From a virus: a stretch of DNA of 39,778 bases. The stretch covers positions 1 to 39,778 of IMG/VR virus record IMGVR_UViG_3300038701_001232; one strand, written 5' to 3'. Each line of letters opens with the position of its first letter. Position 1 is the first letter of the stretch. The translations under genes were made by a program, and so were the position numbers. Below the pieces are notes generated by a model that saw only the letters and a list, made by a program, of their open reading frames with translations, ran no database searches and was not told where the DNA came from. Below, in pieces: positions 10,258 to 36,142 of this stretch.

Positions 10258-11138
10258 TGCTGGTTTCTCATATGACCGTATCCGCCCGCAGCACACCGCC
10301 AATTGTGCCGGAAAAAATATGCCGATCCGAAAACCTTGGGCCGTGCCGTTTTGAGAGGTGGGGCGAGGACGCAGTGCGCCGGTTTTACGAGATTGTCGCC
10401 AACCGAGAAAACAGATCAATGCAGGGCGGCGGCGCATGGGATAACATGCAAAAAAACGAAGCGGTTGGCCGATCAATGGGCTACCGTCAGGCTGTGCTGG
10501 ACTATCTCAAGGACAATCCGGGTTGGAAGGATCGGCGCACCATCGCCGCTAATGTAGAGATGCCGGATGACGGGCTATCAAACGCGCTGCATGGCCTTGT
10601 GACAAGCAAAGCGCTGGTGAAGCGGATCGTCCCAGGCGGGGCGGGGACAAGCGGGCGTCTAGGGCAGTGGCGCATTGCCAAGGGTGCTGACATATCGCCA
10701 AAGGCGTTGCGCCGCACCAACCGCCAGCGGCTGCAACTCGCCCTGACAGACCAGTGGCAGACTACGACGCAGCTTGCCGCCAAGACTGGCCTAAACACGG
10801 AACAGGCCCGCCGCGCGCTTTCGTCTATCACAAGCTGCGGGGACGCATCCCGCGATTACATCGATCAAAAGCAAGGCGGCAAAAAGGCAATCTGGCGCAA
10901 GGCCGGTGCGGAAAAGCGCAGGGAGATGAAAACGGCGGTCGAGCAGCTTCTAAGCATCCTGGACGGCGGCGAATGGTTGACGCTCCGCCAGATCGCGGAC
11001 AAGATCGAGACGTGGAGCGACAAGCGCCTGCAATCGCAGCTATCAACGCAGGTTTCTATCGGTGTGCTTGAAAAGCGCCTTGAGGTGATCAGTGGTCGAA
11101 AAAAGACACAGTGGCGGCGCAAGGAGGGCGTGGAATGA
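10257..11138 (+). CDS. Multi-winged-helix DNA-binding protein (293 aa)
   Basis: This 293-residue basic protein appears to hold three winged-helix units in tandem. They are about residues 75-125 (YRQAVLDYLKDNPGWKDRRT, then LSNALHGLVTSKALVKR), about 160-205 (NRQRLQLALTDQWQTTTQLA, then GLNTEQARRALSSI) and about 235-285 (VEQLLSILDGGEWLTLRQIA, then LQSQLSTQVSIGVLEKRL). Each ends in a turn that can form a wing. There is no enzymatic motif. It may be a replication-origin or transcription factor. It starts at ATG 10257 after GGAGG, overlapping the previous stop, and it is followed by a coiled-coil ORF. The exact role is unknown. Confidence 0.7.
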   Translation: MLVSHMTVSARSTPPIVPEKICRSENLGPCRFERWGEDAVRRFYEIVANRENRSMQGGGAWDNMQKNEAVGRSMGYRQAVLDYLKDNPGWKDRRTIAANVEMPDDGLSNALHGLVTSKALVKRIVPGGAGTSGRLGQWRIAKGADISPKALRRTNRQRLQLALTDQWQTTTQLAAKTGLNTEQARRALSSITSCGDASRDYIDQKQGGKKAIWRKAGAEKRREMKTAVEQLLSILDGGEWLTLRQIADKIETWSDKRLQSQLSTQVSIGVLEKRLEVISGRKKTQWRRKEGVE

Positions 11139-35115: not shown

Positions 35116-35336
35116 TCGGCAATCTAACCATCCTCGTGACCATATGCGCTTCACTGAGCGGCGAAACGGCTTGCAGGGCGGTGGAGTTACCTACGGACCT
35201 ACTTGACCCTGTAGAGTGCGCATCAGAGGCGGAGGAAGAAGCCAACGCGGCGCTGAACCTTGCGGTTCTCTATGCGATTTCTGTCGGGGTTCATATCGAA
35301 AGCGTCGATGCTGTGTGCGCTGGTTCCCCGGCCTGA
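35112..35336 (+). CDS. Small exported protein of unknown function (74 aa)
   Basis: A 74-residue protein from GTG 35112, coupled to the Rz1-like stop (GTGA). The N-terminus (MIGNLTILVTICASLSGETA) is hydrophobic and could be a signal peptide with cleavage near residue 17-20. The rest is acidic with four Cys in all (C12, C21, C36 and one near the end), compatible with disulfides in the periplasm. It is the last late gene before the terminator. No family is recognised. Confidence 0.55.
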   Translation: MIGNLTILVTICASLSGETACRAVELPTDLLDPVECASEAEEEANAALNLAVLYAISVGVHIESVDAVCAGSPA

Positions 35337-35421
35337 CCTGATCCCGGTCGTGGGCGCGGGTCATCTGCCCATATAATCCTGTGCGCGGCGTTCCCGCGTG
35401 TCCCCCGCCCCGCTTGCCTCT

Positions 35422-35444
35422 GCCCCGGTGAGCGGGGCTTTTTT
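35422..35444 (+). terminator. Late operon terminator
   Basis: GCCCCG (35422-35427) pairs with CGGGGC (35433-35438) around a 5-nt loop, followed by six T residues (35439-35444). It ends the roughly 22.5-kb late transcription unit. Confidence 0.88.
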
Positions 35445-35974
35445 GTGGGTCGAACGCGGGCCGGTGTGCTTTATGCGAAGGTGCGGGGTCTAGGCTTCCA
35501 GTTATTCCCCGGCTTGGGAAGCTCCACGCTACGCTTTTGCGTTTCATGGCATCGCAGCCAATCGTCAGGCGCATGGTTGCCGGGCTAGATGTGTCCGTTG
35601 TCACCCCCGCTGGGACACCCACGCATAAAGCACACCGCCGGAAAGCGGCTATGTCGAGCGCGGGCTAGGTCAACGGGCCTTTTCAGGCGTGACGGCCCTT
35701 TGCCGCCACTTCCACCGTCTAGCAGGCTTGCGCTTCGCAGGTTAGCGCCGCCTGTTCTCCCTTACGGGGTGCGAACCCCGCCGCGCTCATGAGGGTGTAT
35801 CGCCTGATAGGTTTATTTAACGACGCTGCCCTAAATACGTCCAAGCTATGTGATACACCCGCATCAATGCGGCTATGGGTCGAGCGCGGCGGTCCCGGTG
35901 GTGGTTAACCTGACAGCGAGCTTCCCGCCATCACCACAACAATACCTTACGTGCCATACCGCGCCGCCCCTACT
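35445..35974. other. Noncoding, repeat- and stem-rich region
   Basis: There is no convincing gene here. A 16-bp perfect inverted repeat, CGGTGTGCTTTATGCG (35462-35477) and its complement (35622-35637), encloses smaller stems: GCTTCC/GGAAGC (35494-35499, 35517-35522) and GTGTCC/GGACAC (35591-35596, 35613-35618). Further on are CGGGGT-GCGA-ACCCCG (a GNRA hairpin near 35765-35780), the inverted repeat GGGTGTATC/GATACACCC (35793-35801, 35852-35860), and a direct repeat of GCGGCTATG..TCGAGCGCGG (about 35645 and 35869). Candidate structured RNA, origin or packaging region. Confidence 0.6.
35462..35637. repeat. 16-bp inverted repeat enclosing a 144-bp stem-rich core
   Basis: The arms 35462-35477 and 35622-35637 are exact reverse complements over 16 bp. 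Transcribed from either strand they form a closing helix around a core that itself contains at least two 6-bp stems. That is the outline of a multi-branched RNA, or of a cruciform at the DNA level. Confidence 0.7.
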
Positions 35975-36142
35975 CTACACCATCGCGCGGCGGGGTGGAA
36001 GGGTGGTCGTCTCGCCGGTTATCCAGTTGCGCCAGAAGGTGATGACACCAAACCGGCCAAACCTCACCTCGTAGGACCACGGAAACATGATGCGCAAAAC
36101 GACATACAAATATGCAGTGCAAGCGATCTCCCAGGTTTCCAT
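35975..36142 (-). CDS. Small Trp-rich protein (55 aa), last gene of leftward operon
   Basis: On the minus strand ATG (36142) overlaps the preceding stop codon (TGATG) and opens a 55-residue frame. METWEIACTAYLYVVLRIMF is at the start, then a Trp/Phe/Arg-rich middle (FGRFGVITFWRNWITG) and PPRRAMV at the end. The first 20 residues could insert in the membrane. No family is recognised. Coupling and composition support it as a real gene, and it is the 3'-most gene of the leftward early operon. Confidence 0.55.
   Translation of the reverse strand: METWEIACTAYLYVVLRIMFPWSYEVRFGRFGVITFWRNWITGETTTLPPRRAMV

Follow-up and report, generated by a model that had tools for sequence, protein, structure and literature searches.

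The tRNA cluster of phage T4 encodes two small stable RNAs, rnaC and rnaD, whose function is open. The same is said of GOLLD and ROOL in the available text of PMC12286853, which presents them as elaborate, pseudoknotted RNAs encoded by phages and prophages, often near phage tRNA islands. Hammerhead ribozymes of types I, II and III are well known in phages and prophages and have been described there as isolated motifs (PMC3088659), and the HDV-like theta ribozymes self-cleave next to phage tRNA genes, at tRNA 3' ends (PMC10879173).

Here we analyze element X, which lies in a non-coding gap of a 39.8-kb tailed-phage contig (IMG/VR record IMGVR_UViG_3300038701_001232, positions 1 to 39,778; the window). 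X is an RNA new to Rfam 15 and to the open-access literature insofar as we could not find it described, and it occurs in at least 100 phages and prophages. Rfam 15, with GOLLD, ROOL, other ribozymes and riboswitches included, holds no family matching its core. No description was found in open-access papers; one in a subscription journal is possible.

Position, strand and extent in the window

The terminase, portal, major head protein, tape measure and tail fibre genes of the window are located at 14-29 kb, with the terminase genes at about 14-16 kb. The rightward late genes stop at about 35.3 kb and are followed by a strong rightward terminator (35407-35445), while a leftward operon enters the gap from the opposite side and ends at 36142. 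Element X is therefore situated behind the leftward operon and is convergent with the late genes. The gap had been described as free of genes; mechanical open reading frames do occur there, but none of them is supported. We found no sigma-70 promoters in the gap, no tRNA genes and no Rfam match at gathering score in the window, and no Rfam match overlapping element X up to an E-value of 5 in 35300-36050. Two weak Rfam matches, sX13 and Atu_C7, were rejected, as both fall on the late terminator and not on element X.

The gap contains perfect 16-nt reverse complements at 35462-35477 and 35622-35637, as originally reported, which can be lengthened to 22 nt at 91%. By our estimate, chance would produce a perfect 16-bp repeat within 500 nt about 0.005 times per 40 kb. 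Folded as RNA, the DNA inside the repeat gives a z-score of -5.1 for the minus and -3.7 for the plus strand, and 0 of 200 shuffles are as good on either strand. The functional strand is the minus strand, opposite to the one first considered. On the evidence of the inverted repeat and of homologues, the whole element spans 35462-35637, with the RNA 5' end at 35637 and the 3' end at 35462. Its outermost part is the optional closing helix P0, formed by the two arms of the repeat (5' arm, the right arm of the repeat, 35622-35637; 3' arm 35462-35477).

The original prediction of a multi-helix RNA has held in that X is a structured RNA with covarying helices, but its strand, helix plan and extent were wrong, and the hammerhead and the pseudoknots were missed. 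Where internal 6-bp stems nested in order had been proposed, the conserved helices are P1, P3 and two pseudoknots. The region had been drawn as far as 35900, and 35660-35900 lies outside element X. A supposedly GNRA-capped hairpin, GCCGGAAAGCGGC at 35636-35650, has a 5-nt GAAAG loop and belongs to a separate element that is repeated at 35859-35877 and kept in a close relative devoid of X.

This separate, hairpin-like repeat, GCCGGAAAGCGGCTATG, occupies 35636-35654, outside element X, and has a TCGAGCGCGG-like stretch behind it. In the X-free relative, L245, the first copy is conserved at 18/18 positions; the repeat is possibly a phage regulatory site. A second imperfect inverted repeat (22 nt, 82%, 50-nt loop) is found at 35780-35801 and 35852-35873, and its core was not detected in L245 or the other relatives fetched. 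At 35966-36001, 36 nt are identical in L245 within an otherwise diverged non-coding stretch.

Core structure and predicted hammerhead

The core of X comprises about 95 nt in two look-alike halves, each consisting of an NCGYGG motif, a 6-bp hairpin and a tail. Two pseudoknots clamp the halves together: in PK1 the hairpin loop of P1 is paired to the half 2 tail, and in PK2 that of P3, GCCGGGGAAUAACUG, to the half 1 tail. Alignment and pair counts place half 1 of the window copy at 35579-35624, with NCGUGGG, P1 (35618-35613 with 35596-35591) and the tail ACAUCUAGCCCGGC, and half 2 at 35483-35529, with GCGUGGAG and P3 (35522-35517 with 35499-35494). PK1, assigned from two-sided changes, joins 35605-35610 in the half 1 loop to 35488-35483 in the half 2 tail; PK2, which is 99.6% paired in the alignment, joins CCCGGC at 35579-35584 to 35513-35508. 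A model of X matches the window at 35624-35478 on the minus strand with an E-value of 2e-9, the window sequence being part of the training set.

Covariation was assessed in an alignment of 43 non-redundant sequences, from which the hammerhead insert was cut out and in which permuted copies were rotated. Half 1 here reads NCGUGG, P1 and the tail ACAUCUGGCCCGGC, and half 2 reads NCGYGGA, P3 and the tail CYNRGG with 6-8 further nt. Pairing is found in 93.0% of helix cells, versus 67.6±1.0% in shuffled alignments; P1 and P3 reach 99% each and PK1 78%. The covariation score is 0.643 (0.168±0.012 shuffled), 18 of 24 pairs show two-sided changes, and 265 cells are doubly changed against 85±7 in shuffles. 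When the partners are slid by one column, pairing falls to 46-50%. All seven PK1 columns show two-sided changes, and a PK1 of at least 6 bp forms in 99% of a copy's own loop-tail pairs, compared with 23% for loops matched with tails from other copies. In PK2, G-C and C-G exchange at columns 46-65, and Acinetobacter plasmids add a compensatory change from G-C to U-A. The helices hold in all three architectures described below at 97-100%, except for P1 in unpermuted hammerhead copies (95%). Compensatory changes in relatives, whose absence had been named beforehand as a refutation, are thus strongly present. As judged from these sequence comparisons, element X is almost certainly a structured RNA family with the strand and structure given here.

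About 40 positions of X are invariant or nearly so. P0 is more variable: 33 of 82 unpermuted copies have an outer helix of 7 bp or more, against 6% of swapped controls, and copies devoid of it have tRNA neighbours or nothing in its place. The sequence likeness of the two halves is modest, being reached by 9 of 500 column shuffles, and their pseudo-symmetry therefore rests mainly on the reciprocal loop-tail pairing. A mutual-information scan also revealed a covarying pair outside the four helices, at alignment columns 41 and 61 (mostly G-C, U-A in several sequences), which is perhaps a tertiary contact next to PK2.

In 74 of 103 copies (about 70%), including that of the window, a type I hammerhead immediately precedes half 2. 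Its core, defined as C3-U4-G5-A6-N7-G8-A9, G12-A13-A14-A15.1 and U16.1-H17, is complete in all 73 copies that could be parsed, with three stems around it and stem I open-ended. All 73 have a stem III of 2-7 bp beyond A15.1-U16.1 and an NUH cleavage context, and the predicted cleavage site is followed by exactly the NCGYGG of half 2. In the window the predicted ribozyme, recognized from its core residues and stems, spans 35525-35573 on the minus strand. It comprises stem I UGCGC/GCGUG, CUGACGA (35568-35562), stem II (35561-35546), GAAA (35545-35542), stem III CGC-AAAA-GCG (35541-35532) and UA (35531-35530), and cleavage is predicted between 35530 and 35529.

The stem II pair next to the core (10.1-11.1) is G-C in 42 copies, A-A in 24, U-U in four and another combination in three. 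The window copy is one of the four with U·U in place of a pair, and Perreault et al. rejected hammerhead candidates mispaired at this position (PMC3088659). The isolated 49-mer of the window hammerhead prefers another fold. Among the loci tested none reaches the RF00163 gathering score of 34; the window gives no match and another locus, L006, scores 28.7 bits. An Rfam search over six homologous loci matched the hammerhead alone and nothing for the X core. We consider the hammerhead very likely to be active in most copies. The window copy may well be active too, although the U-U mismatch beside the core makes this less certain. In the remaining 29 copies a short linker or plain insert sits where the hammerhead would be, which indicates that cleavage is not essential to the X core.

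Distribution and genomic context

Megablast and blastn against annotated phages returned six related records only. A sensitive BLAST search with the gap matched the Arthrobacter phages Karkharias and Constance, the Dickeya phage Setonix, the Pectobacterium phages Pappous and Taid, and the Enterobacter phage SDFMU_EhYP; the motif order is swapped in the Enterobacter and Pectobacterium/Dickeya phages. Copies were then gathered by pattern scans of IMG/VR and of 84,980 species genomes, the latter giving eight matches only, and by profile searches with both halves. A pattern for half 1 produced 78 matches, mostly due to chance, among which no more than three proved to be new copies of X. The resulting 129 loci represent 103 distinct copies, in phages and prophages of Actinobacteria and Proteobacteria. 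The half order is normal in 83 and circularly permuted in 20. By architecture, 54 copies are unpermuted with a hammerhead, which is located between the halves, 29 are unpermuted without one, and 20 are permuted with the hammerhead, always on the 5' side.

By DNA similarity X is present in 15 of 5,426 complete E. coli genomes and in ten Acinetobacter plasmids, with no annotation under the match in either set. One such plasmid (NZ_CP077239, 3380-3640) carries a permuted copy directly behind a tRNA-Asn-like gene; its hammerhead has AAAA in place of GAAA and is therefore probably inactive. Another locus (L219) holds two copies in tandem on the minus strand, the second with a divergent half 1, and a 141.8-kb viral contig with X (L082) contains a tmRNA gene at 10261-10608 on the plus strand (Rfam RF00023, 89 bits). 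In L245, flanking pieces are 89-94% identical to the window, yet X is absent and the conserved flanks are 326 nt apart instead of 851 nt. X is thus a dispensable cassette that can be gained or lost.

Of the 103 loci, 29 have a tRNA gene within 1 kb of X, in every case on the same strand as X. In many of these X is tightly packed, with tRNAs on both sides at distances of 1-20 nt. The shared strand is the one on which X reads NCGUGGG...GGGGAAUAACUG, which is the minus strand in the window. Outside tRNA arrays, X is often found at the head of late operons. The only recurrent partner genes are those for terminase, portal, head-tail adaptor, holin, endolysin and Q, which reflects the late-operon position. 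Compared with E. coli rRNA for mimicry or antisense pairing, the halves of X score no better than shuffles.

Proposed role and relation to known RNAs

X must do something specific, as it is conserved from phages of Actinobacteria to E. coli prophages with its many nearly invariant positions. We propose that it is probably a self-processing, stand-alone minus-strand phage RNA, composed of clamped halves and a hammerhead and acting in trans. The hammerhead would make a single cut, either co-transcriptionally or later, and half 2 would then begin with a 5'-hydroxyl. In permuted copies this would trim off the RNA upstream of X. In unpermuted copies the cut would fall between the halves, which should remain attached to each other by about 13 pseudoknot pairs, and the freed NCGYGG end could enter the mature fold. 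The RNA would then most likely act in trans as a folded molecule, bound by a protein, the ribosome or a ligand, late in infection. A stand-alone role is favoured because neither the half order nor an unbroken backbone matters, and because of the terminators and the tight packing among tRNAs; taken by itself, the trans-acting role is to us an evenly balanced matter. More tentatively, X can be seen as a new class of phage RNA, a fused homodimer in which two copies of one hairpin-plus-tail unit form a reciprocal clamp and, in most phages, the internal hammerhead serves as a one-time switch for maturation. Such an RNA, produced together with phage tRNAs or at the start of late transcripts, would tolerate permutation and a cut backbone and would act in trans on a host or phage target.

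The main alternative is that X is a cis-acting leader of late transcripts, in which the hammerhead cuts off upstream RNA and the knotted 5'-hydroxyl end shields the late mRNA behind it against decay or insulates it. This would suit lambdoid prophages, where X lies between the antiterminator Q and the holin gene, just behind Q and a terminator-like hairpin, 350 nt ahead of the holin and on the same strand as all eight holin genes found. It would also suit ten phages in which a same-strand gene for the terminase large subunit, always from one family, is close to X, with X on its upstream side in nine, and the 5' location of the hammerhead in every permuted copy. However, by simple ORF calling the next gene behind X is oppositely directed in 34 of 94 loci, about a third, and the window is among such cases: here X cannot be the leader of a downstream gene, because the late terminator behind it points the other way. 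A terminator stands right behind X in 15 of 98 loci (15%), versus 0-5% elsewhere, there is no mRNA to shield where X sits within a tRNA array, and 29 copies are free of the hammerhead. We therefore regard a leader function as unlikely, and the stand-alone RNA remains our preferred interpretation.

A further observation concerns the nucleotide N with which both NCGYGG motifs begin. It is identical in both motifs of 100 of 103 copies although it varies between copies (G 53, C 41, U 5, A 1), and the N-N column pair is among the most strongly covarying with no Watson-Crick relation. The complement of N ends the hammerhead arm, as the stem I nucleotide next to the core, in 72 of 74 copies, and in 15 of 18 hammerhead-free copies with a short linker it is the second linker nucleotide, two nucleotides behind PK2. 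These regularities could mean that the arm CGN' pairs alternately with the NCG of half 2 for cleavage and the identical NCG of half 1 for ligation, circularizing half 1 or exchanging ends. A circular RNA is nevertheless improbable, as the same-N rule also holds in hammerhead-free copies, a second NUH cleavage site is generally missing before half 1, and no ligase or second ribozyme was found nearby. The rule could instead stem from a shared partner or from a palindromic contact across the pseudo-dyad; of the pairing models we tried, neither a palindromic helix nor a shared arm accounts for all copies.

The view of X as a plain type I hammerhead located between phage genes, with unimportant flanks, would fit the known occurrence of hammerheads in phages and the subthreshold RF00163 match of L006. 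It is already refuted by flank covariation and is very improbable, as the flanks hold four covarying helices and most invariant nucleotides and are present in the 29 copies devoid of a ribozyme. X was found neither in PaP3, which has a published phage hammerhead, nor in Bcep176, both named in PMC3088659. Equally hard to sustain is the suggestion of a replication origin or packaging site: the size of the inverted repeat, its place in the one sizeable gap that follows the late genes and a cumulative GC-skew peak near 36 kb would agree with it, but the peak coincides with the switch of gene direction and is not independent evidence, the pairs covary as RNA, pseudoknots, G-U pairs and a hammerhead core make sense only as RNA, and X is absent from L245 and varies in location among phages (tRNA arrays, between Q and holin, ahead of terminase), with no fixed position relative to replication or terminase genes.

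If our interpretation is correct, X, which lacks annotation even in complete E. coli genomes, would be a natural structural RNA that comes in circularly permuted forms and is processed by a ribozyme of its own. The question of what phage hammerheads do dates from 2011; they would gain a concrete substrate and a directly testable function.

The hammerhead of X resembles the described type I motif (RF00163; PMC3088659) in its CUGANGA/GAAA/NUH core, its loop-closed stems II and III with stem I open, and its GUC or GUA cleavage context, but in X it occurs optionally, inserted at one set place within a larger conserved RNA. In natural permuted hammerheads the ribozyme itself is permuted (PMC10085705), whereas in X it is the host RNA around the ribozyme. 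Like theta ribozymes, the hammerhead of X is a predicted self-cleaving motif that can adjoin phage tRNA genes; it differs in fold and is predicted to cut before its own half 2 (PMC10879173). In sequence, X is unrelated to what the models for theta ribozymes, GOLLD and ROOL detect. With its same-strand phage tRNA neighbours, X joins a descriptive group with GOLLD, ROOL and T4 rnaC/D. It shares with rnaC and rnaD a place among small RNAs of phage tRNA clusters; no feature of X is recognizable in their sequence and neither half model matches the T4 stretch. With GOLLD and ROOL it shares the phage or prophage origin, the elaborate pseudoknotted fold and the frequent proximity to tRNA islands. These RNAs are several times larger than X and match it neither in sequence nor in Rfam, and the available text of PMC12286853 describes for them neither the nested hammerhead nor the circular permutation that characterize X.
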